Shown here piece by piece: positions 48,663 to 64,000 of a DNA stretch of 64,000 nt. A program made the translations under genes and the position numbers. Within the stretch, counting starts at the first letter, position 1; each line of letters begins with the position of its first letter. The notes below the pieces were generated by a model. It ran no database searches. It was not told where the DNA came from and saw only the letters and a list, made by a program, of their open reading frames with translations. The stretch is from Snodgrassella alvi (GTDB lineage: Bacteria; Pseudomonadota; Gammaproteobacteria; Burkholderiales; Neisseriaceae): assembly GCF_002777825.1 (NCBI RefSeq), contig NZ_MEIR01000081.1, positions 1 to 64,000 of the forward strand, read 5' to 3'.

Positions 48663-48703
48663 GATCATTCCCTTGTAATGTTTTTTTATCTGTAAATGTA
48701 AAA

Positions 48704-48732
48704 CAACTGTCAGCATGGTACGCAGACAGTTG
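48704..48732. promoter_or_regulatory. 8-bp inverted repeat upstream of ilvD
   Basis: CAACTGTC (48704-48711) and GACAGTTG (48725-48732) are exactly complementary with 13 bases between, about 40 bp before the ilvD start. On the - strand a CTGACA-N17-GATAAA promoter-like pair overlaps one arm, so this could be an operator or a terminator of the RDD gene upstream. Confidence 0.4.
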
Positions 48733-49665: not shown

Positions 49666-50241
49666 CATCTTCCATATGATATTTCTGCGTAGCCGGTGCA
49701 ACTTTACACAGACAGCGTACATGCCGGCTTAACTGGTTAATATCAGCCATTTTGAAATTAACCCAGCTTCAGTAGCTGCGGCGAGCAGGCGCAATACTGT
49801 ATTGGTAGAACCGCCCATAGCAATATCCTGGCTCATGGCATTATTGAACGCTGCCTTGGTGGCAATGCTGCGAGGAAGAACACTGCTATCATCCTGCTCA
49901 TAATAGCGTTTGGTTAATTCAACAATACGCCGGCCTGCTTCGAGAAACAGTTCTTTACGTAATGCATGGGTAGCCATTAAAGAACCATTACCGGGTAAAG
50001 ATAAGCCCAGTGCTTCAGTCAGACAGTTCATTGAATTGGCGGTAAACATGCCTGAGCAAGAACCGCAGGTAGGGCAGGCGCTGCGTTCTACACTGGCTAC
50101 AGTTTCATCGCTGATTTTATCATTACCGGCTTCATTCATCGTATCTATCAAATCCAATTGGCGCCTTTATTGCTAACCATTAGGGTTTGCAAGATTATAA
50201 TCGGCAACTCAAATTGCGCACCATAGTGCACGAGCACCCAT
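49666..50241 (-). pseudogene. Duplicated, internally deleted ilvD fragment
   Basis: Bases 49666-50185 closely match ilvD 47674-48193, with scattered substitutions and a frameshift near 49755. Then 50186-50241 match ilvD near 48561-48619, so about 365 bp is missing between. One 142-codon frame is still open but cannot make the enzyme, as it lacks the N-terminal Fe-S cysteine region and most of the C-terminus. Confidence 0.9.
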
Positions 50242-52604: not shown

Positions 52605-53462
52605 ATGGATAGTAATATGGGTAATAAACAGCAGTATGATTTTGATGTCATTATTCTGGGGGGCGGACTAGTTGGCGCCACTCTGGCTCTGGCCTTGCTC
52701 CAGCAGGGCAAAAAAGTGCTGTTGCTGGAAAAAAAGCCGCCCCAAACTAATTTAAGCAGTCTCTCTCATTCTTGGGATGCCCGTATCTATGCTGTTAGTC
52801 CAGCTAACCAGCAGTTTTTAAATAAGTTAGGTGTCTGGCCAGCAGAGCGGGTACAGACAGTAAACCGTATGCAAGTGTATGGTGATAATCATGGACATAT
52901 CAGCTTTGATGCCACCAGTGTGAATGTACCCTGTTTAAATTATATGTTGGAAAACCGTTATCTGCTGGCAAAAATATGGCTGGCACTGGCAGAAAATGGC
53001 GTAACGATAGCAGAAAGTCGGCCACAGTCAGTTAAAACCGATGTCTGGTCAGCACAGATAACACTTGAAAATGGCAAATCTTATCGTAGTCAGTTACTGG
53101 TAGGTGCGGATGGTGCTAATTCATGGCTGCGTGAACAGGTTGGCATCGAAGTGAGCGCATCTCCTTACCGACAGCAGGGGGTAGTGGCTAATTTCAGCAC
53201 GGCAAAGCCACATCATGGTTGTGCCTATCAATGGTTCCGTGGTGGCGATATCCTCGCTTATCTGCCTTTACCACAACAACAGATTTCTATTGTCTGGTCA
53301 ACTGCTGATGCAGAAAAGCTGACTATGCTGGCCGGGGAAGATTTTGCATGGCAGGTTACTCAGGCTGGCCATTACACACTGGGCGAGCTAACGCTGACTA
53401 CACAAGTATTCACATTTGATCTGATAAAACGTCAGAAACAATTTTTATTAATGGTCGCGTAA
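52605..53462 (+). pseudogene. Truncated ubi-type FAD monooxygenase, disrupted by integrative element
   Basis: A 285-residue frame of the UbiH/UbiF/UbiI family (GGGLVGATLALALLQQGKKVLLLE, DARIYAVSPANQQFL, LLVGADGANSWLREQ). Family members are near 390 residues. The frame ends at FDLIKRQKQFLLMVA, just before the conserved GDAAH-xxH-P-xAGQGxN second FAD motif, and element DNA with an integrase begins immediately after. The most likely explanation is integration inside this gene, leaving it broken or with a replaced tail. The missing 3' part should be at the far end of the element. Confidence 0.75.
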
Positions 53463-53502
53463 TATATTATTTCAAATAAATAAACAAATAAGATAAAATA
53501 AG

Positions 53503-53535
53503 CCTATTCCGCAATCTTTAAACCTATTCCGCAAT
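53503..53535. repeat. 13-bp direct repeats at the integrase end
   Basis: CCTATTCCGCAAT occurs at 53503-53515 and 53523-53535 (20-base period), the second inside the last codons of the integrase gene. Such repeats are candidates for integrase arm sites or part of the attachment site. Confidence 0.5.
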
Positions 53536-54585
53536 TTCACCGTTGCTATGCTCAAAAGGCGTTAAGGGACGAGTGCGCCTAATATATACTTTTTTAGTCA
53601 TGCTTACACTGGCGTGACCCATTAATTTACTCGCTTCCTCTTCGCTAGATACAAGCGATTTATCTGTCGCAGATTTAGCGCGTAAATCTCTGAATTGAAT
53701 CTGCGCCAACTCCACGGCATGTTCTGGGTGGTTTTGAATAGCTAAACTGCGGGCAACATCAAAGCGGTACTCTAGGTTGCTTATAGTCATTTTTCTTTTA
53801 CGTTTGTTTAGAAATAAAAAACCGCCATGAGGAGCGCGACGCGTAATAATATTCTGCAATCTGGCTGTAACAACGAATCTAAGGGCGTGACTTGTTTTGT
53901 TTTGCTTGATACTGAGTATGCCTTTTTGGATATGGTCGGTATGAATTTTAACTGTGTCACAAGGACGCTGCCCAAGCATCATCGCTATCTCCATCGCATC
54001 ACGCAAATCTTGGCCACCATATTTATACAGGATGCTATAGATATAATCTTCAACATATACATCCCTTGGCTGTTCTTTATTTCGTTTGATATCTTTTGAT
54101 GGTGATTCTTTTGATGTATACCCCCAATGAGCAGGGCGGCAATATGTCCATACATGGCTAAATAAAGCCATTTCCCTGTTGGCTGAGACTGGTGCATTGT
54201 TACGCCATTTAAAATATTCCCGTATATGGACTGCATCAATATCTTCTAGAAGTACCGGATTGGCACCACCAAAAAACAAATTTAGATTTTTTGCTTGGTA
54301 GTGATTATCTTTCTGTGATTTAGGTGCTTTTTTAGGGACTACTTCCAACATATATCGTTGTAATGCCTGCACAAAAGTGATTTGGTGAGCCTTATCAAGC
54401 TTCTGTAGTGACAACTCCGACCATTTTTGACAGGCTTTCACATAATCATTGCCTAGCGGTATTTCTTTACGCGGTTTGCCACCAGTATCGAAGTAATACC
54501 ATGTCACTATGCCGTTGCGCGTTTTGCGTTTACGTGCACGCATGCCTGTTGGTAGATTTAAATTAACTGTTGCTTTACGACCCAT
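53524..54585 (-). CDS. int: Tyrosine recombinase/phage integrase
   Basis: A 353-residue integrase with an N-terminal arm-binding region, a core-binding SAM-like domain (residues 70-170) and the catalytic domain: Arg207 (GQRPCD), Lys230, Arg302 (FRDLRAKS, with Arg where His is usual), His324 (LMGHAS) and Tyr334 (KKVYIRR). It lies at the edge of the element, next to the interrupted ubi-type gene, in the usual position for site-specific integration. Confidence 0.92.
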   Translation of the reverse strand: MGRKATVNLNLPTGMRARKRKTRNGIVTWYYFDTGGKPRKEIPLGNDYVKACQKWSELSLQKLDKAHQITFVQALQRYMLEVVPKKAPKSQKDNHYQAKNLNLFFGGANPVLLEDIDAVHIREYFKWRNNAPVSANREMALFSHVWTYCRPAHWGYTSKESPSKDIKRNKEQPRDVYVEDYIYSILYKYGGQDLRDAMEIAMMLGQRPCDTVKIHTDHIQKGILSIKQNKTSHALRFVVTARLQNIITRRAPHGGFLFLNKRKRKMTISNLEYRFDVARSLAIQNHPEHAVELAQIQFRDLRAKSATDKSLVSSEEEASKLMGHASVSMTKKVYIRRTRPLTPFEHSNGEIAE

Positions 54586-54604
54586 ATAGCCCCCAATAAT
54601 AAGA

Positions 54605-54859
54605 TTATGCCGAGTTGCTTAGCATAGGTGATTGCCAGCGTGTTTTAACTTGAGTACTGCTTGAATGCTGCTTTTTATTCCCTAATAGGGCTTGGCGCAA
54701 TACTATCGGCTCATTTCTTCCATTTAAACGAAAAGGAATACCCTGTTTTCTTAAATGTTCAACTTGCTTGCTTTTGGCTTTATACCCCGTTAATACGATT
54801 ACCTCTGCTGGTGTCAAAAATTCTGCATAGGGTGATGTTTCAGACATAATCTTGCTCAT
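54605..54859 (-). CDS. DUF4224 domain protein
   Basis: An 84-residue protein of the DUF4224 type (FLTPAEVIVLTGYKAKSKQVEHLRKQGIPFRLNGRNEPIVLR), a winged-helix-like module commonly found just upstream of phage integrases and thought to act like an excisionase. The start may be the second Met (54847). A hairpin with T-tract lies directly upstream. Confidence 0.75.
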   Translation of the reverse strand: MSKIMSETSPYAEFLTPAEVIVLTGYKAKSKQVEHLRKQGIPFRLNGRNEPIVLRQALLGNKKQHSSSTQVKTRWQSPMLSNSA

Positions 54860-54861
54860 AT

Positions 54862-54882
54862 AAAAACCGGCTAATTGCCGGT
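54862..54882 (-). repeat. Start-associated hairpin 1
   Basis: ACCGGC/GCCGGT arms around a 5-base loop followed on the - strand by T5, immediately before the DUF4224 gene. Confidence 0.7.
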
Positions 54883-54908
54883 GTGTGTGTTGTTACGTTT
54901 GCTTAGGG

Positions 54909-55142
54909 TTATTTAGGTTGCGGTGTGTTATGCCAGTCGCAGGATAGGCCTCCGGCGTAACCATCCCTGTAAGTAAGGCAGGTGATTTTGCGTCCATCTC
55001 TTAAAGTTATAGATGTTTCTCCTATATGACGGGCGGCTTCTTTATCAATCTGTTTACGTGTTTCGGCTCTCTCGGCTTCTGTCATTTCACAACCAGCAAT
55101 AAAAAAAGCCGCTGTAGCAGCTATAATCAATTTAGTTTTCAT
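54909..55142 (-). CDS. Small phage lipoprotein
   Basis: A 77-residue predicted lipoprotein: MKTKLIIAATAAFFIAGC signal and lipobox, then a charged helix (EAERAETRKQIDKEAARH) and a small beta-like tail. AGGACAG precedes the chosen start; seven further codons upstream would spoil the signal peptide. No family recognised; exclusion or cell-surface roles are possible for prophage lipoproteins. Confidence 0.6.
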   Translation of the reverse strand: MKTKLIIAATAAFFIAGCEMTEAERAETRKQIDKEAARHIGETSITLRDGRKITCLTYRDGYAGGLSCDWHNTPQPK

Positions 55143-55166
55143 GTTATCTGTCCTGATAATCAAAAT

Positions 55167-55187
55167 AAAAGCCAGCGATTAGCTGGC
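55167..55187 (-). repeat. Start-associated hairpin 2
   Basis: GCCAGC/GCTGGC arms, 5-base loop, T4 on the - strand, upstream of the small lipoprotein gene. Confidence 0.75.
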
Positions 55188-55240
55188 GTTGTCTACTCAT
55201 CCACGGAAATGCACTCATCGAATGCATTTGAATTGATAAG

Positions 55241-55462
55241 TTATCCGTAAATTGTCAACGTTAAAGGGATCCACTCATCATTCTCATAACACGGAATCCA
55301 ATCATCTGCTTGGTAACCTGTAGGGCAAGGGTTTTTTTCATCACAAGAAACAACCGTCCCTTTACGCGCACCAGTAAAAATAACGATAAAACCCTTATGT
55401 TTATTTCTTCGCGCTACGGGATACATATCTTCAGGAAGTAGCGTTTCAGCCTTTGAAATCAT
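55241..55462 (-). CDS. Hypothetical phage protein, 73 residues
   Basis: A small protein (YPVARRNKHKGFIVIFTGARKGTVVSC, then CPTGYQADDWIPCYENDEW). It looks like a compact beta-rich fold; no family recognised. A strong AAAGGAG site precedes the ATG. Confidence 0.6.
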   Translation of the reverse strand: MISKAETLLPEDMYPVARRNKHKGFIVIFTGARKGTVVSCDEKNPCPTGYQADDWIPCYENDEWIPLTLTIYG

Positions 55463-55504
55463 GATTAACTCCTTTCAATTTGAATTGTTTGTAATAGATA
55501 AACT

Positions 55505-55525
55505 AAAGCCCGCTGGTTGGCGGGC
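55505..55525 (-). repeat. Start-associated hairpin 3
   Basis: GCCCGC/GCGGGC arms with a 6-base loop and TTT on the - strand, in the gap before the 73-residue gene. Confidence 0.7.
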
Positions 55526-55537
55526 ATTTGAACTAAA

Positions 55538-55801
55538 TTAATTTTGCGGTATTGATTGTCTTAATTCTTCCAACCTTGCACCGATCCGCGTTTGCTCCTC
55601 CGTGTGTTGCTTAAAAAATTCGAACGCCTGAGGAGGCAGAACTCCACCCACATCTTCTGCCATTTGTGCAGCCAAATCCTCTTGCCCTTGCAGAAACGCT
55701 TCATATTCATCAATCATTTTTAAAGCTGATTTGAACTCCTCATTACTAACAGCTTCTGCAATTAACGATAAGCTTGATTCATCAAAACATTCTAAAAGCA
55801 T
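55538..55801 (-). CDS. Hypothetical helical phage protein, 87 residues
   Basis: An acidic, almost wholly helical protein (SLIAEAVSNEEFKSALKMIDEYEAFL, EEQTRIGARLEELRQS). No family recognised. Its start has GAGAGATGAAAAG upstream. No hairpin of the repeated type lies in the 120-bp gap before it. Confidence 0.55.
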   Translation of the reverse strand: MLLECFDESSLSLIAEAVSNEEFKSALKMIDEYEAFLQGQEDLAAQMAEDVGGVLPPQAFEFFKQHTEEQTRIGARLEELRQSIPQN

Positions 55802-55922
55802 CTTTTCATCTCTCTATCGATTTTTAAACTCGGGCAGGGTAGCAGGTGGTTAGGCATCGACTGCCATCGTGCATATGCCAGAACTGCACTTCCAACAAAC
55901 AACCCAATTCTACTATATATAT

Positions 55923-56489
55923 TCAATTTGCATTGTTATCCTTAACCAGTTTCAATGATTCGGATATGATTTGTGTCTTAGGCTTTTCAGAAAATGCATA
56001 CTCTATCTTTACCCCTATAAAAAATAGGATTAACTTTTCGTATACGCTTAGGTTTCTTGATACTTCTGTATAACCGTTTGCTGGTGTCATCCCTAACATC
56101 TCTAAGGCGGCTAGCCGAGCTGGATAAGCTAAGGCGTCTACTTCCTCGTTATCCTTTTGCTCAAGTTCTAAAAAATTACCCTTAACCACCTCAATATCAT
56201 AATCATCAAAATGCGAATATAGTGCTTCATACTCACGATATAGCGCTTTTGCTGATTGAGATTTGACGCCGGCTTTGATGGTTAATTGAAAAAACACAAC
56301 GATAGTAATTATGAAGCCGGATATTATTGCGCTACACAATCCGGCTACCGTGCAAATAGCCACGAGCATCAAAATAAACGCAGCCAACTTATCTAGTCGA
56401 CCGAAAAACTTATACATAAATTTTTCATACCAAAATGAATAGGCAATCAAAAATTTTAAGTGTTGCGCCGTTTGTTCCTGGTTATCCAT
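55923..56489 (-). CDS. Hypothetical membrane protein with two N-terminal helices
   Basis: A 188-residue protein: an N-terminal amphipathic part, two transmembrane helices (about residues 33-75), then a long charged helical region and a weaker hydrophobic stretch near residue 155. The arrangement is reminiscent of small SLATT-like membrane proteins linked to phage conflict, but I cannot assign it. The chosen start has GGAGG seven to eight bases upstream. Confidence 0.6.
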   Translation of the reverse strand: MDNQEQTAQHLKFLIAYSFWYEKFMYKFFGRLDKLAAFILMLVAICTVAGLCSAIISGFIITIVVFFQLTIKAGVKSQSAKALYREYEALYSHFDDYDIEVVKGNFLELEQKDNEEVDALAYPARLAALEMLGMTPANGYTEVSRNLSVYEKLILFFIGVKIEYAFSEKPKTQIISESLKLVKDNNAN

Positions 56490-56525
56490 GCGTATTACCT
56501 CCATCTGTTATTAAGCTCAAAAACT

Positions 56526-56543
56526 AAAGCCGCACTAGGCGGC
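56526..56543 (-). repeat. Start-associated hairpin 4
   Basis: GCCGC/GCGGC arms around ACTAG, TTT on the - strand, upstream of the two-helix membrane protein gene. Confidence 0.75.
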
Positions 56544-56564
56544 ATTGTTTGTGTTATCTGTCAC

Positions 56565-56581
56565 GACCGCTTACGGCGGTC
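56565..56581. repeat. Extra hairpin near the + strand ORF
   Basis: GACCGC/GCGGTC with a 5-base loop. It lacks a T-tract on either side and lies 35 bp before the + strand mini-gene, where it could be an operator or RNA structure. Confidence 0.45.
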
Positions 56582-56615
56582 AGTCGGCACATACGAAAGT
56601 AAAGGAGGGCTAACT

Positions 56616-56741
56616 ATGTGCTGCGCGCTGTTATTAATCCCGCCACCTGCGCGCTGGGCGGGTCAGAACACACCTACACCAAAAACTGATTACTCCACGC
56701 GTGAGCTGCTTCCCATCCGTCCAATGTTTTTTCTGCGATAA
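56616..56741 (+). CDS. Small + strand ORF, 41 residues
   Basis: The ATG lies 7 bases after AAAGGAGGG, an excellent ribosome-binding site. The peptide (MCCALLLIPPPARWAGQ, then a hydrophilic tail) has no family I recognise. It is the only plausible gene on the + strand in this element, opposite an otherwise unidirectional early region, so it may be a small regulator or host-takeover peptide. Without comparative data it stays tentative. Confidence 0.4.
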   Translation: MCCALLLIPPPARWAGQNTPTPKTDYSTRELLPIRPMFFLR

Positions 56742-56878
56742 CTTTTTTGACAGATTTGCATTTACCCTGATGTATTTTTTTGGATTGTTACTTTTTTCTT
56801 TCTTTAGGATTGTGCGAAAGACAACAACATGAAACCTGCGTTTACAGGCTTGTAAATTACATTATTCATTTGTATACC

Positions 56879-57271
56879 CTAATCTTTCCGGCGCCGAATG
56901 TAATATTTAACCCTCATCGAAGTTGCCAACAGTCTTGCTTCGTTAACCGCTATTAACAACGCCCATCTATTGCTACTTGATGCTATAATTTCCCCACTGG
57001 AAGTTATTCGGGCATAGTTACAATGGGCAGACGCCCAACTCTTTAACTCATCAATTACTTTTTCTGGTATATTCCATCCATTTTGCGACAAGGTCATTGC
57101 GACGTAATTGTCATCCGTTAAATTGAATTCCTCATCATTAACAGTAAGAAAAAGACAAAAGTTTTCACCACCCACAATCTCGTATGGAGAAAAAAGCAGA
57201 ATTCGACCGTCATCGCGGCGTTCAATCTCCCAAGAGTCTTCTTTTAATGTTAATTCTTCATTATTAGTCAT
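56879..57271 (-). CDS. Hypothetical phage protein, paralogue of the next gene
   Basis: A 130-residue protein. An N-terminal part contains DGRILLFSPYEIVGGENFCLFLTVN and FNLTDD, and the C-terminal part ITSSGEIIASSSNRWALLIAVNEARLLATSM. Both blocks are shared with the frame-shifted neighbour upstream, so the two arose by duplication. AGGAGGTG precedes the ATG. Family unknown. Confidence 0.6.
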   Translation of the reverse strand: MTNNEELTLKEDSWEIERRDDGRILLFSPYEIVGGENFCLFLTVNDEEFNLTDDNYVAMTLSQNGWNIPEKVIDELKSWASAHCNYARITSSGEIIASSSNRWALLIAVNEARLLATSMRVKYYIRRRKD

Positions 57272-57282
57272 CTTAACACCTC

Positions 57283-57668
57283 CTAATTAGGGCACCTAAA
57301 TACCATAGCGAGCGCCAACTTTGCTGCGTCCTCAATCGCTTTGTGCAATAGATTTAAATCCCTGTGCTCTGCTATGATTTCGCCGCTGTCTACAACTTGC
57401 GCGTATTTAATGCCGTGCGTATTATTTAATTCCTGTATTAATTCTTCTGTTAGGTCTAATTCTCTATCAGCGACGTACATGGCAGTTCGAGCATCGTCCG
57501 TCAACTTAAAAGATAATTCGTCTCTACTGTGAATATACAAAAAAGCCGTGCCCCATAGCCAAGTTCAAATGGGGCGAGGATTGCCGCATTCTTGTCATTA
57601 AGCTTCAAAACAGCCCAGCTGGGAAGGGTTGATACAGCCTCTGTAAATTTAGTCATATACATATACAT
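57283..57668 (-). pseudogene. Frame-shifted paralogue of the 130-residue protein
   Basis: The 5' part (57668 to about 57540) encodes MTKFTEAVSTLPSWAVLKLN and NAAILAPFELGYGARLF; the 3' part (to 57283) continues one frame back with RDELSFKLTDD and VDSGEIIAEHRDL. The switch falls at a run of six T in CTTTTTTG. Together they align along the whole neighbouring paralogue. One extra T, or -1 slippage on the T-run, would restore one protein of about 128 residues. It is either a real frameshift, a homopolymer sequencing error or programmed slippage. Confidence 0.65.
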
Positions 57669-57680
57669 TTTTATTGCCTC

Positions 57681-57914
57681 TCAATACAAAGCCTCAGCAT
57701 CACCGCGCAAGCGTTCTGCATCACTCATCCGCGTATACGCATCAGCTATCCGTTTAACTTCTAAATCTGCTAATTGCTCTTTTTGTTGCATTTGTTTAGC
57801 GGCGTATTCGCGCTGCATCTGTAGCTGCTCTGTTTCAGTAGGTACAGGTAATATCATCATGGAAGCAGTCATAAAAAAAACTGCAATAAATGCAGTTATC
57901 TGTAGTTTAATCAT
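57681..57914 (-). CDS. Small membrane-anchored coiled-coil protein
   Basis: A 77-residue protein with an N-terminal hydrophobic helix (LQITAFIAVFFMTASMMIL) followed by a Gln/Glu-rich coil (ETEQLQMQREYAAKQMQQKEQ). A single-pass architecture with a periplasmic or cytoplasmic coil, as in small phage Rz-like or exclusion proteins, but not specific enough for a call. The start is the Met before IKLQ. Confidence 0.5.
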   Translation of the reverse strand: MIKLQITAFIAVFFMTASMMILPVPTETEQLQMQREYAAKQMQQKEQLADLEVKRIADAYTRMSDAERLRGDAEALY

Positions 57915-57927
57915 GGTTTCACCAATA

Positions 57928-58224
57928 CTAAATTGCAATCAATTTCACAAATCGGAATAAAGGTTTCCCAGTTTTCTTGCTAATTTTAGGACTTCTTCCA
58001 TTTACAGTAACTTTCTCCGCCTGTGCGATGTATATGCATCTTACGTCATGCGTTTTTTTTGCAAGCTCTATAAACTCATAGCAGCGCTCTAGGCTAGAGT
58101 AATCAGGTGAAATCTGATACGCATTATTATTGGAATAATACCTATCTGATGGGCTGAGCTTGTTGGCAATATCGCCTTTTCTTTGCTCTTCTTTTTTTAT
58201 AGATTTACCAAAAACTGCGTACAT
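57928..58224 (-). CDS. Hypothetical phage protein, 98 residues
   Basis: A basic protein (FGKSIKKEEQRKGDIANKL, then ERCYEFIELAKKTHDVRCIYIAQAEKVTVNG). No family recognised. A strong GGAAGAGGTAG region precedes the start, and the gene ends 13 bp before the next start. Confidence 0.55.
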   Translation of the reverse strand: MYAVFGKSIKKEEQRKGDIANKLSPSDRYYSNNNAYQISPDYSSLERCYEFIELAKKTHDVRCIYIAQAEKVTVNGRSPKISKKTGKPLFRFVKLIAI

Positions 58225-58245
58225 AACTACCTCTTCCTTTCTATT

Positions 58246-58269
58246 AAAAACGCCAGCTAATAGCTGGCG
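58246..58269 (-). repeat. Start-associated hairpin 5
   Basis: CGCCAGC/GCTGGCG arms around TAATA with T5 on the - strand, before the 98-residue gene. Confidence 0.8.
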
Positions 58270-58274
58270 TCTTA

Positions 58275-58712
58275 TTAATAATATGAATCTATATAGTCTG
58301 GATGCAGATGATCATATAAATGTGGTTCCATGTTTATAACTTGAAAATTATTGCATTCTTCAACATTTGTAATTTTAAAATCATAAACATGAGGCCATTG
58401 AGGAACTTCAAATTTACAAAGCGTAATCCCATTTTCTCCATCAAATCGTAATCCAGTCTCATAACATATATCTACAAGTATATGGTCTAAGCTTTTGTCG
58501 TTGATTCTACAAGAAGAAAGTTCATGCGTTATTGATTTTAAAAAAATTTCCAAATAAGTCTCAAAAGGACAATCTCTTTTGTAGTAAAATATAGGACTAT
58601 CTTTTATCACAGCAACAATTTGATCTTTAATTCCCGGATAATCCCAATCAATACCAATCTGAATATAAAAATCATTGCGGTACCATACTGTATATAATTT
58701 TCGTCCTGTCAT
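58275..58712 (-). CDS. Hypothetical phage protein, 145 residues
   Basis: A soluble protein with aromatic N-terminus (LYTVWYRNDFYIQIGIDWDYPG) and a central helical part. No domain recognised. The start follows GGAGCTTGAA and the preceding hairpin, the clearest example of the hairpin-plus-GGAGCT arrangement. Confidence 0.6.
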   Translation of the reverse strand: MTGRKLYTVWYRNDFYIQIGIDWDYPGIKDQIVAVIKDSPIFYYKRDCPFETYLEIFLKSITHELSSCRINDKSLDHILVDICYETGLRFDGENGITLCKFEVPQWPHVYDFKITNVEECNNFQVINMEPHLYDHLHPDYIDSYY

Positions 58713-58725
58713 TTCAAGCTCCATT

Positions 58726-58747
58726 AAAAAGCCAGCTAATAGCTGGC
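58726..58747 (-). repeat. Start-associated hairpin 6
   Basis: GCCAGC/GCTGGC around TAATA and T5 on the - strand, followed by the GGAGCT site of the 145-residue gene. Confidence 0.85.
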
Positions 58748-58750
58748 AAA

Positions 58751-59219
58751 TTAATCTTTTATAAAAGTAAACCAGTGCGTGCCTCCATGTCTTTTAGTCA
58801 CATGGCCAAACAATGGTTTATGCGGTGTGAGGGCTAAAATATCCTTAACCTTGATTTGGGTTTCATTCCATTTAAAGATTAAAGTGCCGTTTGGTTTTAA
58901 AACTCGGAAACATTCAGCAAAACCTTTCCGTAAGTCATCTCGCCAGTCTTGTCCTAGTATTCCATACTTCTTAGCCAGCCACGATTTAGAACCGGCTTTG
59001 TTCAAATGCGGCGGGTCAAAAAACAACAAGATGAAATTCATTATCTTCGAATGGCAAATCAGTAAAATCCAGCAGGATATCTGGTTTAATTTCCAATGCA
59101 CGGCCATCGCATAAAGTAGTAGATTCCTGTCTTTTGTCACCAAATAGACAGCGCTCATCTTGCTTATCAAACCACATCATGCGACTGCCACAGCATGGGT
59201 CTAGTACAGGTGCAGTCAT
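58751..59219 (-). pseudogene. Frame-shifted SAM-dependent DNA methyltransferase-like gene
   Basis: The 5' half (59219 to about 59016) encodes APVLDPCCGSRMMWFDK (SAM-binding) and DILLDFTDLPFEDNEFHLVVF. The 3' half in another frame continues FDPPHLNKAGSKSWLAKKYG, ECFRVLKPNGTLIFKW, HGGTHWFTFIK. The frames part at a run of six T; with five T the join reads LVVFDPPH, a DPP(Y/H) catalytic motif, giving one class I methyltransferase of about 155 residues. It starts behind GGAGCTTTAA. True frameshift or homopolymer error cannot be told apart here. Confidence 0.7.
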
Positions 59220-59233
59220 TTTAAAGCTCCAAT

Positions 59234-59256
59234 AAAAACGCCAGCATTTAGCTGGC
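59234..59256 (-). repeat. Start-associated hairpin 7
   Basis: GCCAGC/GCTGGC around a 5-base loop, then GTTTTT on the - strand and the GGAGCT site of the methyltransferase. Confidence 0.85.
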
Positions 59257-59364
59257 TTCATTTTCTAAATTTGTTAGCTTTTAAACGGGATAGAATAGAC
59301 AAGAATATATAATTACTGTACACTCATTACTGTTTTGTTAGTAAAAATGCAAGTGATTTTTTTC

Positions 59365-59445
59365 TTGACTTTTACAGAAGACAGGTAATAATTCTGTCTA
59401 CCTCGGTACACTCAGTGAAGCCCCAACTTCACTGAGTTTATTTTA
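59365..59445 (+). ncRNA. Possible small + strand transcript with terminator
   Basis: A TTGACT box at 59365-59370 with TAATTC/TAATAA sequences 15-18 bases later is followed by a perfect 10-bp stem CTCAGTGAAG/CTTCACTGAG (59411-59436, 6-base loop) and TTTATTTT. This promoter-plus-terminator layout is antisense-oriented to the surrounding genes and sits in a 203-bp gap. It would make an RNA of roughly 50 bases. Confidence 0.35.
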
Positions 59446-59459
59446 CTTGGCGGGCTTGG

Positions 59460-59714
59460 CTATTTAGGCATAGGGATTTCAGATATTGGGATATAATGGG
59501 TAATCGTAATAGCGGATCTATCCTCCTCACGCTCACCACGATCCCACCACTCCCATTCTGCTCTTTCTAGATAATAATAATCTATATCTAACCTTGTCCA
59601 ATGCTTAGTTCGATATCTGGTGTGCGTGGTGCCTTCGATATAGATAAGGCATAGACAGTCTTTTCTAGGTGGTCCATCTTTTTCAAAACTATACCAATTA
59701 AGAAAATTATCCAT
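59460..59714 (-). CDS. DUF551-like phage protein
   Basis: An 84-residue acidic, Trp/Tyr-rich protein ending THYIPISEIPMP, which resembles the ITHWMPLPEPP terminus typical of DUF551 phage proteins, with an N-terminal KDGPPRKDCLCLIYIEG block in keeping with that family. Function of the family is unknown. AGGAGGTGAA precedes the start; no hairpin here. Confidence 0.55.
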   Translation of the reverse strand: MDNFLNWYSFEKDGPPRKDCLCLIYIEGTTHTRYRTKHWTRLDIDYYYLERAEWEWWDRGEREEDRSAITITHYIPISEIPMPK

Positions 59715-59777
59715 TTCACCTCCTTGTTAAGGGAATGGCAGCTCATTGATATTAATCCAGTGCGTTATGCCAAGCTA

Positions 59778-59966
59778 TCATATAGCACCTAATTTAGTTT
59801 TTAACTCTTCATAAGACTCTTTAAATGTGTGAGCCTCCGCACCAGTACAAACTGAAATAAGCATACGAGCATGTCCATCATCGCTTTCCCATAATAGCTG
59901 TATGCAATCAACATTAATTACAATGCCTGTATCATCTTGCTCTGTTACTTCTATAAATTTACTCAT
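59778..59966 (-). CDS. Hypothetical phage protein, 62 residues
   Basis: A small beta-rich protein (MSKFIEVTEQDDTGIVINVDCIQLLWE, ending SYEELKTKLGAI) resembling short FlbD-like phage proteins with the KFIEVT start. A GGGAGCTTGAA site and a hairpin precede it. Confidence 0.55.
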   Translation of the reverse strand: MSKFIEVTEQDDTGIVINVDCIQLLWESDDGHARMLISVCTGAEAHTFKESYEELKTKLGAI

Positions 59967-59981
59967 TTCAAGCTCCCAAAT

Positions 59982-60007
59982 AAATAGCCAGCAGTCGCTG
60001 GCTATTT
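59982..60007 (-). repeat. Start-associated hairpin 8
   Basis: An 11-bp stem (AAATAGCCAGC/GCTGGCTATTT) with a 4-base loop. It overlaps the stop codon of the upstream gene and precedes the GGGAGCT site of the 62-residue gene. Confidence 0.85.
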
Positions 60008-60449
60008 AACTATTAGTAGGTATCTGCGCTTTTAAATTCTCGCTAAGTCGACCTGTTTTATTAAAACAATCAACATCCGCTTGGGTTAGCTTTATTAATT
60101 TAATTTGATCACCGCAACGCCCGCACTTAGGGCTAACATATTTTTCTGCTAGCGAGTTTAAATATGCTTGGAGTTTCTCTTTTTCTTCAGCGGGGATATC
60201 ACTATATTCCGTAAATTCCCCCCATTCACCGGCAGAGATTTCTTCCGTCATAAGCATATCTGCATCCGATAAAATTTCATCAACCGAAAGGGGGAAAGTT
60301 TTATATGCCCGAATTAACTCACAAACTTCGATAACCACCCCAGCATATAAAGCTTCGCAATTAGTTAAACACTCTTCCAAATCTTCATAACATTTGGTAT
60401 CAGAAAAAGGTTTAATTCTGAAGCACACTTCAATATTTTGATTACTCAT
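60006..60449 (-). CDS. Hypothetical phage protein with possible zinc ribbon, 147 residues
   Basis: A protein with several Cys residues: CYEDLEECLTNCEALY near the N-terminus and KCGRCGD near residue 113. The CxxC pair could bind zinc with a distant partner. No family recognised. The start is MSNQNIEV behind GGAGCTGAAA. Confidence 0.55.
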   Translation of the reverse strand: MSNQNIEVCFRIKPFSDTKCYEDLEECLTNCEALYAGVVIEVCELIRAYKTFPLSVDEILSDADMLMTEEISAGEWGEFTEYSDIPAEEKEKLQAYLNSLAEKYVSPKCGRCGDQIKLIKLTQADVDCFNKTGRLSENLKAQIPTNS

Positions 60450-60466
60450 TTTCAGCTCCAAAAATA

Positions 60467-60487
60467 AAACCAGCTAGGTGCTGGTTT
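60467..60487 (-). repeat. Start-associated hairpin 9
   Basis: AAACCAGC/GCTGGTTT arms around TAGGT, followed on the - strand by ATTTTT and GGAGCT before the 147-residue gene. Confidence 0.85.
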
Positions 60488-60503
60488 ATGTGTTATTGAT
60501 ATT

Positions 60504-60836
60504 TTAATTCTCATCTATAGGTGCATACCGCACTACTGTTACCACTTCTTCTACAGGCTTCACTTCGTAAAACTCAAATACCTCAGTGATTCCCGCTGAG
60601 TGCCAGCGTGAGGCATCTTCTTCATACTCAATACTGAAAAACCTGTCTTGGAGTTTAACTATATCGCAGCACGTAAAGAAGGTGTCGGAAGATTCTATAA
60701 CCTCATGTTCTACACTGAAAGACCGGACTAGTCTAGTGGCTTCAAGGTTAGATATTGTCTCTCCGGTAGCATGCTTGTCTAGTATAAGCTCTACAAATTT
60801 TTCGTCTGAAAATACATCTAAATCTATTTTGTTCAT
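60504..60836 (-). CDS. Hypothetical phage protein, 110 residues
   Basis: An acidic protein (MNKIDLDVFSDEKFVELILD, then ISNLEATRLVRSF and a C-terminal EVFEFYEVKPVEEVVTV). No family recognised. Start placed at the Met before NKIDL, behind GGAGCTGAAAAA. Confidence 0.55.
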   Translation of the reverse strand: MNKIDLDVFSDEKFVELILDKHATGETISNLEATRLVRSFSVEHEVIESSDTFFTCCDIVKLQDRFFSIEYEEDASRWHSAGITEVFEFYEVKPVEEVVTVVRYAPIDEN

Positions 60837-60852
60837 TTTTTTCAGCTCCAAT

Positions 60853-60873
60853 AAAAAGCCGCACTAGGCGGCT
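60853..60873 (-). repeat. Start-associated hairpin 10
   Basis: GCCGC/GCGGC around ACTAG with T5 on the - strand, then the GGAGCT site of the 110-residue gene. Confidence 0.85.
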
Positions 60874-60901
60874 TCACGTTCATATTTCTCACATTTAACA
60901 G

Positions 60902-60934
60902 CTATATACCTGCTCCATAATTGTTATTTAGCAT
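60902..60934 (-). CDS. Possible 10-residue leader peptide
   Basis: ATG to TAG encoding MLNNNYGAGI, with a perfect AGGAGG site five to six bases upstream. It lies about 30 bp before a start-associated hairpin, a position where a translated leader could influence the hairpin. Could be chance. Confidence 0.25.
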   Translation of the reverse strand: MLNNNYGAGI

Positions 60935-60956
60935 TATTGCCTCCTATGGAAAAACA

Positions 60957-61022
60957 TTAATCATTGCCATCCCATCCATCATGATAAATACGTTTCATTT
61001 TCTGCATTTGGGGTAAATTCAT
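60957..61022 (-). CDS. Possible 21-residue peptide coupled to the Gp157 gene
   Basis: Its ATG overlaps the TGA of the Gp157 gene in an ATGA arrangement. The peptide runs MNLPQMQKMKRIYHDGWDGND. Overlap suggests translational coupling, but length is small and no homologue is known to me. Confidence 0.35.
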   Translation of the reverse strand: MNLPQMQKMKRIYHDGWDGND

Positions 61023-61513
61023 TTAATTTTCAAAGTCTCAGTTTGAATTAATTCAACGCCCTGCACATCAATGCCAGATTTAAGTACTTCTTTTAAAGCA
61101 TTTTTATCTACCTCTTTAACCGTCTTTATACGGAAATACTCATCAGGGATAAGACTTTCATCAAAAACTTCAACTTTTGGCGGGTTTTTCCGAAAACTCA
61201 TTGAGAAAGTTCCATCGAAAGAATTAATCCGCTTGATGTCCGAGCGTCTCATTTGAATTTCAATGTATTTTGTTATGTTTTCAATTTTATTATCAAACCA
61301 TTTCAACTTTGCCTGCATATCTTTTATATGGTTGGAGATCATTTCCCTTTGAGATGAAAGATTCAAAACATATCCACCGACATCCAGTGCTTTACTTTGA
61401 AAATCTTCTATAACCATTGCGATGGTATCAGGTGAAATGTCTGCATCATTATCCATTGCATTAAGTAATCTAACAACATCATCCGCACATTGATACAGTT
61501 TAATATTACTCAT
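61019..61513 (-). CDS. Siphovirus Gp157 family protein
   Basis: A 164-residue protein matching Gp157 (resistance/host-factor family named after a Streptococcus phage protein): long helices (SQREMISNHIKDMQAKLKWFDNKIENITKYI), then SFDGTFSMSFRKNPPKVEVFDESLIPDEYF and VDKNALKEVLKSG, the signature end of the family. Usually found with Sak4/SSB genes in phage recombination clusters, as here. Start is MSNIKLYQ behind GGAG. Confidence 0.85.
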   Translation of the reverse strand: MSNIKLYQCADDVVRLLNAMDNDADISPDTIAMVIEDFQSKALDVGGYVLNLSSQREMISNHIKDMQAKLKWFDNKIENITKYIEIQMRRSDIKRINSFDGTFSMSFRKNPPKVEVFDESLIPDEYFRIKTVKEVDKNALKEVLKSGIDVQGVELIQTETLKIK

Positions 61514-61529
61514 AATTATCTCCAAAATA

Positions 61530-61550
61530 AAAAGCCGTACTAGGCGGCTT
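61530..61550 (-). repeat. Start-associated hairpin 11
   Basis: GCCGT/GCGGC (one wobble) around ACTAG with TTT and ATTTT on the - strand, followed by GGAG of the Gp157 gene. Confidence 0.8.
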
Positions 61551-61561
61551 ATAATTAATTA

Positions 61562-62233
61562 TTAAAATGGGATATCGTCTTCAATATCATCAGGAGCGGT
61601 CATAGGTTGCGTGTGCTGCCGTTGTGGCGGTGCTGGCGTAGAGACTGGGGAATTAGGCTTAAATGTACGCTTATCATATAGTGGTTTACTGGCGATGTGA
61701 GCAACCATTTTTTCCAGCATAACTTTCTCTGTTGAGCGATTCAGAATCTCCGAGGCGGTAAACTCTGTTTTTGCTTCAAATGGCGCTAAAATCATGGGCT
61801 TTGGATTATTGTCACCATCCTCCTGCACCATCTGTACTACCAGCCCAATTGGCTTATTCTGTAACGCTGTAAAGCAAGGTTTAATAACATCAACAACCTG
61901 CCCAGTTTCTTTATCATATTGCTTTACCGCACAATTAACAGGCTCGCCCGCACTTTTTTCCCTTAGACAGGCCAAAATCGCATAAACCAAGCTCTGCCCA
62001 CTTTGATTTTTTTCGCCGTTACGATAACTAGTATTGATATAAAAGCGCGCTTTTTGCTTTGAATCAGAGATGAAATTAAAAAATAAACCCTCTGATCTGC
62101 CATTGACTCCGTCTTTAACGTGCCAGATAACGCTTTCAAAATGGCCAATGTATTTCCCGGCTTCATTAATAAATCCACCTAGTGCGTCGGCATCTTTTGC
62201 ATATTGGGCGGTTTGGTTATTAAGTTCAAACAT
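61562..62233 (-). CDS. Phage single-strand DNA-binding-like protein
   Basis: A 223-residue protein with an OB-like N-terminal region (GLFFNFISDSKQKARFYINTSYRNG, SLVYAILACLRE), a Pro/Gln-rich linker and an acidic terminus APDDIEDDIPF resembling the C-terminal tip of SSB proteins that recruits partners. It lies directly between Gp157 and the Sak4-like ATPase, as in phage recombination modules. An 8-base overlap joins it to the ATPase gene. Confidence 0.7.
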   Translation of the reverse strand: MFELNNQTAQYAKDADALGGFINEAGKYIGHFESVIWHVKDGVNGRSEGLFFNFISDSKQKARFYINTSYRNGEKNQSGQSLVYAILACLREKSAGEPVNCAVKQYDKETGQVVDVIKPCFTALQNKPIGLVVQMVQEDGDNNPKPMILAPFEAKTEFTASEILNRSTEKVMLEKMVAHIASKPLYDKRTFKPNSPVSTPAPPQRQHTQPMTAPDDIEDDIPF

Positions 62234-62918
62234 TATTACTTCCTTTCTCTATACCGTAATAATCACAAATAACTGTATCAACTTTATTTAAATCATTTTC
62301 TATCAAATCTTGTTCAAACATATCTATAGGCGTTTTTACCGTGTCATTGCCATTGTTGTGTGTGCTAAATAAATAGTTGCCATTAATTACCTGCGTGCGC
62401 AGAACGATTGTTACCATGCCCTCAAGCACAATTTTTTCATCCAGTAGCTTGCCAATGGTTTTGATGCTGGTTCTGCCCATTTCATCAGTTTGAGTGTGCG
62501 CCATGATGTAAATACGCTTGTCAGTAGGGCAGCTAGTTGCGGCGTCTATAACTTCGTATGCATTCTTTGCCAGACAGTTGTATTTATGAAATACTGCATT
62601 GCCTTGAAGTTCATCCGTTACGCTGCGCATAAATTCATTACTCATCAAATACTGAAAATCATCGATAATGATTGTTTTAACGTGATCAGGCAGCCTGCGT
62701 AAGATGCGTACAATTTTGTCTGAATTGTCGCTAACAAAGATATTACCATCAGTCCATGTATCATCTTCCCGCTTTTCCCTTTGGCACCATTCTTTAGATT
62801 TGAATGGCAACGGCTTTTGCCTGATCTGAATTAAAAATGATGTTTTAGGGTCTAAATTACGCAATGAAGTGGATTTCCCCGTACCACTGTCGCCAAGCAC
62901 AAATGTCGTAATACTCAT
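62226..62918 (-). CDS. Sak4-like RecA-fold ATPase
   Basis: A 230-residue ATPase: Walker A GDSGTGKST (residues 9-17), Walker B TIIIDDFQYLM, and a sensor-like RIYIMAHTQTDEMGRTS. This is the AAA_24/Sak4 type, a phage single-strand annealing ATPase acting with the SSB-like protein. The start MSITTF follows GGAGGTTGAT. Confidence 0.8.
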   Translation of the reverse strand: MSITTFVLGDSGTGKSTSLRNLDPKTSFLIQIRQKPLPFKSKEWCQREKREDDTWTDGNIFVSDNSDKIVRILRRLPDHVKTIIIDDFQYLMSNEFMRSVTDELQGNAVFHKYNCLAKNAYEVIDAATSCPTDKRIYIMAHTQTDEMGRTSIKTIGKLLDEKIVLEGMVTIVLRTQVINGNYLFSTHNNGNDTVKTPIDMFEQDLIENDLNKVDTVICDYYGIEKGSNNV

Positions 62919-62919
62919 A

Positions 62920-63117
62920 TCAACCTCCAAAGTATTTATTTATTTGCACATCTTCATTAGATGAAATAGTTTTCTTTTTTTGAGAATATCCATAATTAAT
63001 AATTGCATTTTCTAAGCGTTTCCCTAACTCAGTTTCCGCAGTGTTTGCTACCAATTTTTTTGCATGAATAGCATTGATGAGATTACTAACATCAGTTACA
63101 AGGTTATGTTCTTCCAT
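62920..63117 (-). CDS. Hypothetical phage protein, 65 residues
   Basis: A short, helical, basic protein (VTDVSNLINAIHAKKLVANTAETELGKRLENAII). It ends one base before the Sak4-like start, so the two are likely co-translated. Start behind GGAGCTTTAA. Confidence 0.55.
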   Translation of the reverse strand: MEEHNLVTDVSNLINAIHAKKLVANTAETELGKRLENAIINYGYSQKKKTISSNEDVQINKYFGG

Positions 63118-63134
63118 TTTTTTAAAGCTCCATT

Positions 63135-63157
63135 AAAATAGCCAGCACTAGGCTGGC
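63135..63157 (-). repeat. Start-associated hairpin 12
   Basis: GCCAGC/GCTGGC around ACTAG with TATTTT on the - strand, then the GGAGCT site of the 65-residue gene. Confidence 0.85.
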
Positions 63158-63177
63158 ATCACTAAATCAAAACCCAA

Positions 63178-63855
63178 TCATTCATCACAGGCATACTGTT
63201 TTAAATCCTCATGCATTTCTACACCCTCGGGTAAATACCATTTTTTTACATCTTTATCCCATCTGGCTCCATGCTGTTTTGCTATCCATCTTTCAGGGTA
63301 GGGGACATTTAAGTATGTTCTAGCTGCCCGCTGGCTCATTATTTTTGCTTTTTTGGCTTCTTCCTTTTTCTTTTCACGTTCCGCAGCTTTAGCATTAACT
63401 TTTGAGTAATCCGGTGGGTCGGCATATAACGCACTGGCCAAAAGCTTGGCCGCTTTAGTGTATTGATAATCCCTATCCCGTCTAGTATTAGCTTCTTTAA
63501 TCAACCCGCCCAAGAGTAGCTGCTCACGTTCGTCCGTTTTAAAATCCCCGTAGTCCAAAAGCGCATCGAAAATCCCAGTATTCGATAATTGCTGCGGGTT
63601 TTTAATATATTTCAACTTGCGTGTTAAAAAATCGGCAAATGTATCCAAGGTTTTAGCGTCTACTGGGTCAAAGCTATAATCTTTATCTATGATGCTCGCA
63701 TCTTGAAATTCTTTAAGAAATTTCCGTAGTTTAAGTCGAGCTTGTTTTTTTGGCGTGTAGTTGCTAAATTCTTCATGCTCAGCCTGCTTTTTAGCTAAGC
63801 TTTCAGCATTGAGCCTAGAAAGGTCAGGCCTGGATTGCTGTATAGCTGTGCTCAT
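63178..63855 (-). CDS. DUF5710-containing phage protein
   Basis: A 225-residue protein. The first 150 residues are helical and charged (KKQARLKLRKFLKEFQD, AKAAEREKKKEEAKKAK). The last 50 (TYLNVPYPERWIAKQHGARWDKDVKKWYLPEG) match DUF5710, a small DNA-processing-associated domain also seen in plasmid primases and antirestriction proteins. Start behind TTGGAG after a hairpin. Confidence 0.7.
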   Translation of the reverse strand: MSTAIQQSRPDLSRLNAESLAKKQAEHEEFSNYTPKKQARLKLRKFLKEFQDASIIDKDYSFDPVDAKTLDTFADFLTRKLKYIKNPQQLSNTGIFDALLDYGDFKTDEREQLLLGGLIKEANTRRDRDYQYTKAAKLLASALYADPPDYSKVNAKAAEREKKKEEAKKAKIMSQRAARTYLNVPYPERWIAKQHGARWDKDVKKWYLPEGVEMHEDLKQYACDE

Positions 63856-63868
63856 TATTCCACTCCAA

Positions 63869-63893
63869 TAAAATAGCCAGCTATTTAGCTGGC
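63869..63893 (-). repeat. Start-associated hairpin 13
   Basis: GCCAGC/GCTGGC around TATTTA with TATTTT on the - strand, then GGAG before the DUF5710 gene. Confidence 0.85.
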
Positions 63894-63921
63894 AGATTAT
63901 GTATAAGAGAATTCTATAGAA

Positions 63922-64000
63922 TCAGCGTCCATATATATCTTTGTTAATACGGTTATCTGGGCAAAATGAATCCTTGCAGTCGTCTATCTTTTTTATTTTA
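63922..64000 (-). CDS. Partial phage gene, 3' end only
   Basis: From the right edge a frame is open for 25 codons to TGA, ending DSFCPDNRINKDIYGR. It is followed after 28 bp by hairpin 13, the same spacing as other gene ends here, so it is probably the end of a gene starting outside the window. Confidence 0.4.
   Translation of the reverse strand, partial: KIKKIDDCKDSFCPDNRINKDIYGR

Follow-up and report, generated by a model that had tools for sequence, protein, structure and literature searches.

Serial terminator-like hairpins before gene starts, and a conserved leader, in the lambda-type early operon of a Snodgrassella alvi prophage

We analysed 64,000 nucleotides (nt) of Snodgrassella alvi DNA (contig NZ_MEIR01000081.1, positions 1 to 64,000; hereafter the window), whose right end carries the first part of a prophage (the element, contig 53.5-93.3 kb). 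Its early operon runs leftward from cI to int and, by family match, contains repressor, Sak4-, SSB- and Gam-like, excisionase and integrase genes. This left operon is lambda-type: it adjoins cI, carries recombination genes and extends to xis/int. Small hairpins, each followed by a T-tract, stand in series before its genes and are best read from their sequence as putative, mostly weak intrinsic terminators adjoining the next Shine-Dalgarno (SD) sequence. We propose, with a probability of about two in three, that these weak serial terminators, with the U-tract running into the next SD, stop unmodified polymerases and separate gene cassettes, and that leader RNAs make polymerases started at a PL-like promoter resistant.

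A prior reading made from the letters alone (the sequence-only reading) had placed 13 hairpins at 54862-63893. All are present on the coding (minus) strand and span 54866-63893:

54866-54882, minus strand: hairpin and T-tract before an excisionase-like gene (54605-54847 or 54605-54859)
55171-55187, minus strand: hairpin and T-tract 28 nt before gene 54909-55142; its context of ~90 nt recurs at contig 64351
55508-55525, minus strand: hairpin with GCCCGC arms and T-tract, 45 nt before gene 55241-55462
56529-56543, minus strand: hairpin and T-tract 39 nt before gene 55923-56489; the orthologues in G003 and L311 have another stem
58250-58270, minus strand: hairpin and T-tract 25 nt before gene 57928-58224
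58731-58747, minus strand: hairpin, T-tract, GGAGCT and ATG of gene 58275-58712
59240-59256, minus strand: hairpin, T-tract, GGAGCT and ATG of gene 59016-59219, which is shorter than its relatives
59981-60008, minus strand: hairpin (12 bp including an A-T extension), GGGAGCT and ATG of gene 59778-59966
60467-60487, minus strand: hairpin, T-tract, GGAGCT and ATG of gene 60006-60449
60856-60874, minus strand: hairpin, T-tract, GGAGCT and ATG of gene 60504-60836
61532-61550, minus strand: hairpin, T-tract, GGAG and ATG of the Gam-like gene 61019-61513
63141-63157, minus strand: hairpin, T-tract, GGAGCT and ATG of gene 62920-63117
63876-63893, minus strand: hairpin, T-tract, GGAG and ATG of gene 63178-63855; an orthologous hairpin is present in 4/4 relatives found (L310-L313)

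With tighter bounds, five of them lie at 58252-58268, 59987-60002, 60469-60485, 60858-60872 and 61533-61549. The claimed position just before gene starts holds for ten of these, which end at most 26 nt from the start; the other three (55171, 55508 and 56529) lie 28-45 nt away. All six sites said to run directly into GGAGCT and then ATG do so, and the GGAG variants behind 61530 and 63869 are likewise present, while no GGAG follows the stem at 54866. The arms had been called nearly the same. Seven are exactly GCCAGC/GCTGGC, two GCCGC/GCGGC and one ACCAGC/GCTGGT, and 61533 has AGCCG/CGGCT; 54866 (ACCGGC/GCCGGT) and 55508 (GCCCGC/GCGGGC) depart from the pattern. Stems measure 5-12 bp, with core hairpin energies of -5.8 to -11.4 kcal/mol. 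An extra copy lies just beyond the window (contig 64351-64367), and the late operon has five more hairpins with SD and start, mostly with other stems. Ahead of the late operon stand two tandem terminator-like hairpins (L003:17858-17917); G003 has both kinds, ~370 nt apart. Two stretches are duplicated within the element: a 90-nt context with its hairpin, found at window 55171-55250 and at contig 64351-64430, and, at window 58275-58724 and contig 63922-64338, a paralogous gene start (MTGRKLYTVWYRNDFY). The gene behind hairpin 59240 appears frameshifted (window 58751-59219); in its relatives from L380 and L316 the frame stays open for ~155 aa.

The hairpins are more frequent than chance predicts. 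Both strands of 54000-64000 hold 28 terminator-like sites, against 7.1 (standard deviation (sd) 2.6) in shuffles, and perfect stems of at least 5 GC pairs number 13 in 10.5 kb versus 10 in the remaining 53.5 kb of the window. In 13/13 cases the stem is followed by a sense-strand T-tract, as in intrinsic terminators, with at least 6 T in 9 nt; over the first 9 nt past the stem, T averages 6.8 on the coding strand versus 4.5 on the other, the coding strand being higher in 13/13. A frequency in the host core genome equal to that in the element had been named by the sequence-only reading as a refutation; stretches taken as host proved far poorer in such hairpins. We counted a start as having a hairpin when a stem of at least 4 GC pairs, followed by at least 5 T in 9 nt, ended 4-45 nt before a start called by a home-made gene caller, a rule that misses some sites (59987, by its tail T count; contig 64351, by a mis-called start). 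The hairpin occurred at 16/57 prophage starts versus 2/95 in four presumed host stretches (window 1-53000, L005 from 2 kb, L006 and L027), and in 16/32 versus 2/48 same-strand gaps of at least 25 nt (Fisher p ~2e-6). A second scan (at least 5 T of 9, end at most 30 nt before a start with SD, open reading frames (ORFs) annotated or not) returned 17 sites in the element, 12 each in the related genomes G002, G003 and G004, 10 in lambda, 4 in AP1 and 5 in Aaphi23, some of those in lambda and AP1 preceding ORFs without gene annotation. Three host stretches gave 2, 0 and 0.

Additionally, hairpin and T-tract occur together well beyond this element. In IMG/VR, the pattern GGCTTTTTATTGGAG(3-9)ATG, that is GGC, T-tract, GGAG and ATG, was found in at least 120 stretches, and a second tail pattern in 46. 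Among the deduplicated matches listed for the first pattern, a hairpin of at least 4 GC pairs lay directly upstream in 61/83, with very diverse stems; for the second, deduplicated, it did in 12/38. The background among the matches listed was 5802/40475 for any GGC in the first set and 2587/43115 for any GC in the second. Among the matches listed for both sets together, the hairpin accompanied GGC followed by an SD-start with any spacer in 99/232, the same without T-tract (GGC, GGAG and ATG) in 19/116, GGCTTTTT without SD in 44/138 and any GGCTTT in 212/1330. In the element, G002 and G003, 33/49 starts with a T-rich tract had a hairpin versus 2/116 others. These controls and counts tie the hairpin to the T-tract rather than to the SD; the tie is closer when an SD comes next. 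The sequence-only view that each site resembles a terminator placed before the next gene is supported by T-tract coupling and by enrichment at starts.

Because hairpin and SD lie so close, a translational insulator or switch that keeps the SD free or blocked was also considered, as the sequence-only reading had suggested. Predicted SD accessibility lends it no support, being alike at 38 hairpin starts (mean 0.47) and 111 others (0.50, p=0.38), and it does not fall when the hairpin bases are barred from pairing (0.52). As hairpins without a T-tract are also not enriched before SDs, we regard this role as very improbable. A main effect on RNA stability, with the hairpins protecting the upstream mRNA 3' end or bordering processing sites and termination incidental, is unlikely too. 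The stems do lie close behind short ORFs, and terminators may stabilise upstream mRNA according to one report (PMC11696848). Such a role leaves unexplained why the T-tract is strand-specific and touches the stem, and why T-tract and hairpin are coupled. Stems of 5-12 bp are, moreover, short for RNase III.

Covariation of the stems in related elements, which the sequence-only reading had named as a test, is present: orthologous starts keep their pairing while the letters change. Across 45 groups of orthologous starts, the hairpin was kept in 63/92 non-query orthologues. Of the 91 orthologue pairs in which each member has a hairpin, 34 had 1-4 differences in the 3' arm that were compensated in the other arm, and 16/34 orthologue groups showed at least one compensated difference (one group being an alternative start of another). 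Since both members of a pair had to be paired by construction, the weight lies in the retention rate. The Gam-like gene illustrates the change, its stem being AAGCCG/CGGCTT in the element and GGCAGCC/GGCTGCC in G004; the Eikenella metagenome-assembled genome (MAG) has another stem again, and no hairpin was detected in G002. Similarly, the MLPIEGIP gene has AAGCCAGC/GCTGGCTT in one case and AACCACTC/GAGTGGTT in the other, with proteins 97% identical over the first 90 residues. In an alignment of 23 hairpin rows, 99.3% of cells pair, 3/6 pairs show double changes and the covariation score is 0.150 versus 0.046 shuffled; the double changes come from three rows, because 20/23 were chosen for GCCAGC arms.

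We also scanned 100 Sak4-bearing loci (L028-L128 minus L082, which is <3 kb). Seven had at least 4 hairpin starts on one strand, the others 0-2: the Eikenella MAG L028, Pasteurellaceae L029 and L035, which carry an identical set of five hairpins, and viral L049-L052. The closest Sak4 match of the element is the Eikenella MAG, and the Sak4 of viral L049 is identical to that of the element. Some hairpins of relatives (L028 2142-2162, L052 11343-11361, L360 near 4918) resemble what we take to be Neisseriaceae DNA uptake sequences. These comparisons bear on whether the hairpins might instead be DNA palindromes bound by a phage protein, like an operator or stoperator. The GCCAGC/GCTGGC arms do recur throughout the genus, and yet they vary among orthologous starts and among operons, stem length and loop vary as well, and the T-tract favours one strand. 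A DNA-bound palindrome is accordingly highly unlikely, and the operator reading was rejected because the arms change between orthologous starts.

Of the 23 sites used to build a covariance model, ten belong to this element; the model had 24 matches with E<=0.1 in the own genome (E-values are rough, the model being short). Among the 22 matches listed, 14 are in the element (ten being model rows), 7 on contig C80, 1 on C60 and none in window 1-53500. At least one match occurred in 14/14 genomes of the genus and 61/83 of the family; outside the genus, 40/47 matching family genomes carry one to three. In L362 and L363, which belong to further genera within the family, hairpin, T-tract and SD stand before the start of what by eye resembles argF, and the arrangement may thus occur in core genes as well.

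The early-operon hairpins tend to be borders at which gene content switches. We compared site pairs that share the 100-nt flank on one side only with those that share both; such pairs are not independent, and the upstream flank was fixed at 37 nt for starts without a hairpin. In 12 left operons, hairpins had one-flank to both-flank pairs in the ratio 57:9, compared with 56:35 for the other starts. Counted per site, the ratio was 31:4 at hairpins versus 31:26 at non-hairpin starts, with 12:17 for other gaps of at least 25 nt, and a wider set showed the same trend (96:22 versus 245:228). A clear case is hairpin 60856, where upstream flank and hairpin are shared and the downstream DNA differs between the element, G002 and G003. 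This excess of one-flank-only sharing bears out the gene shuffling that had been suggested for these sites.

The same excess (31 hairpin sites one-flank only against 4 both-flank, non-hairpin starts 31 against 26) raises the question whether the hairpins are primarily recombination borders, short repeats that shuffle cassettes by homology and carry the terminator along. The 90-nt hairpin context duplicated inside the element speaks for this, as do arms with GGAG that recur in 9/14 genus genomes, counted in or out of prophage. Shared DNA homology, however, has no need of compensated stem changes, and many stems differ in late genes and in other genera. Furthermore, the border behaviour may stem from intergenic position, and the site pairs are not independent. 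Recombination as the primary role is, in our judgement, quite unlikely.

If the hairpins terminate, the early operon would need a means of reading through them. A promoter-like TTGCAC-17-TAATAT, recognised by eye, lies between CI and the first left gene and is directly followed, just outside the window, by a conserved leader:

contig 64789-64997 (L003:11790-11998), minus strand: leader A, ~200 nt, directly after the PL-like promoter

Leader A is 94-96% identical in G002 and G003 and matches 6/83 family genomes including its own, one match spanning only 26 nt; its core is exact in 14 viral stretches. A second copy exists in the own genome (contig C80:302472-302678, 98%). We aligned 19 copies. 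Conservation begins within ~10 bases of one point in 16/18 rows, with upstream DNA of several types, and the indels, which measure 1, 2, 4 and 21 nt, make a coding role doubtful. RNAalifold predicted 46 pairs, 5 of them with double changes, and the covariation score of the core was 0.059 versus 0.043 shuffled. At the same place, phages L311 and L313, as well as genome G007 (L366), carry leader B, which is unrelated to A and shares little with it besides ACCCATCGAA; between L311 and L366 one of its stems changes, by eye, from GCAGC/GCTGC to GAAGC/GCTTC.

Leaders A and B had no BLAST hit below E 0.3 in HK022 22-32 kb, and leader A matched neither plasmid nor phage records. The early region had no match in phage records (phage records only, plasmids not searched). 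Rfam returned nothing at gathering scores for window 53000-64000; its three hits around the leader were at chance level and fell far short of those scores. In a literature search of limited coverage we found no published description of these hairpins or leaders. A boxA in leader B was considered: the candidate TGTTCTTTAAATAA is found in L311 and L313. The idea was rejected, as L366 lacks TGTTCTTTAAATAA and as in G007, a genome from this genus in a single contig, the boxA-like site before the 16S rRNA is CGCTCTTTAACA, a partial match only. In the own genome TGTTCTTTAAANAA occurs once, and Rfam gave no match in the 3-kb locus that holds it.

In the proposed mechanism, the hairpins would be mostly weak intrinsic terminators whose U-tract runs into the next gene's SD. 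Placed in series in the PL-like early operon and in the late operon, they would stop or thin unmodified RNA polymerases and separate exchangeable gene cassettes, presumably with some leakage in vivo. The structured leader RNA that polymerases started at PL transcribe first, A here and B in sister phages, would render them resistant, and this leader may be a cis-acting processive antitermination element or a landing site for one. By analogy, A or B may set up processive antitermination, in which case transcripts from PL alone would pass the terminators; we propose this because HK022 put is reported to lie just after PL and to cause terminator read-through (PMC9378689). A further suggestion, which we hold tentatively and at clearly less than even odds, is that A and B are two unrelated new families of cis-acting antitermination RNA that occupy the same PL +1 position in one betaproteobacterial genus and work with a standardised terminator-SD unit before each exchangeable gene, inserted cassettes being silent unless transcribed from PL.

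A number of observations weigh against this mechanism. As to the leader, 98.4% of cells in the core of A pair versus 97.5% in shuffles, a small excess because most columns are invariant, and the fold of the single sequence surpasses shuffles by just 1.7 sd, 16/200 of them folding as well. Within the <=6 kb that follow, 7/18 leader rows have no hairpin site; for five of the seven, <2.2 kb could be searched. A model of leader A, run on 89 loci including HK022 22-32 kb and lambda, matched only G002 and G003; no N-like gene emerged; and the leader leaves the late operon unaccounted for. As to the hairpins, none was detected in 29/92 orthologues, and the 23 alignment rows were chosen for having one, 20/23 for GCCAGC arms. 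The site density of G002-G004 is barely above that of lambda (2.6-2.9 versus 2.1 per 10 kb). UUU right after the stem is reported to be important for termination (PMC8955417); 8/13 tails start TTT and 5 are interrupted (GTTT, TATT). A terminator score exceeded 0 at 6/17 element sites, 5/12 in G002, 3/13 in G003 and 10/17 in G004. The best element site scored 34.6 and M13 25 to 50 depending on stem definition. As only 1/41 host gene ends scored >0 by the same procedure, the score is a poor yardstick here; the sites are called mostly weak because their stems are short and their T-tracts broken.

Other features of the left operon are:

53524-54585, minus strand: integrase, at the distal end of the leftward early operon
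61562-62918, minus strand: SSB-like and Sak4-like recombination genes, tightly packed and without hairpins
contig 65152-65832: CI-like repressor, shortly beyond the window

Two further points were noted by eye: the prophage apparently splits a UbiH-like monooxygenase gene (window 52605-53462 on the left, contig 93505-93864 on the right), and the ORF at window 49729-50157 resembles an incomplete, degenerate duplicate of the ilvD gene (46794-48716).

The putative intra-operon terminators of this element are repeated, often near-uniform and countable, and they tend to coincide with gene-exchange borders. As the hairpins occur with two alternative conserved leaders, the role of such terminators becomes directly testable. 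Should the leaders antiterminate, they would be RNA elements additional to the reported cases of put, EAR, conAn and canT.

Neisseriaceae phages are not alone in having this architecture, which also occurs in M13, lambda and many IMG/VR contigs. Kinship with the start-associated sequences (SAS) and extended SAS (ESAS) of cluster K mycobacteriophages, to which the hairpins had been compared, was not borne out. Both systems place a repeated motif with inverted repeats before a subset of gene starts; this is resemblance only. SAS is a conserved 13-bp sequence over the SD, and the cluster K study reported little support for an mRNA hairpin in the ESAS repeats (Pope et al. 2011), whereas the element keeps fold and T-tract. 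Membership was rejected, as the window holds 0 matches to the 13-bp SAS consensus within 2 mismatches (0.68 expected).

Between M13 gVIII and gIII, hairpin, T-run, GGAG and ATG follow within ~20 nt in the same order as in the element, in single copy and with a longer T-run. This central terminator of M13 acts between two genes of very different output. The conAn and canT systems have several intrinsic terminators in a long operon and an antitermination element near its start, and are reported to limit spurious transcription in this way (PMC8955417, PMC11658703). They share with the element serial terminators and an element near the operon start; they belong to Gram-positive plasmids and integrative and conjugative elements, and the likeness meant here is one of arrangement.

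The closest parallel is with lambdoid phages (lambda N/nut, HK022 put, P22-like phage L), which likewise carry recombination genes in an early left operon from cI to int, have terminator-like hairpins ahead of genes and possess a conserved element just after PL. For phage L, the roles of intra-operon terminators are reported to be unknown (PMC8022706). Leader A agrees with HK022 put, a ~70-nt two-stem RNA, in position alone, neither the leader A model nor BLAST (no alignment below E 0.3) finding a match in HK022 22-32 kb (put is not annotated in the HK022 record used). The element differs from the lambdoids in its many near-identical arms in series, in the U-tract beside the SD and, by one scan, in about twice the hairpin density of lambda, its relatives G002-G004 being only slightly above lambda. 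With its stop-like signals the element shows, in unusually regular form, a feature known from lambda-like phages, and the leader is the newer part.

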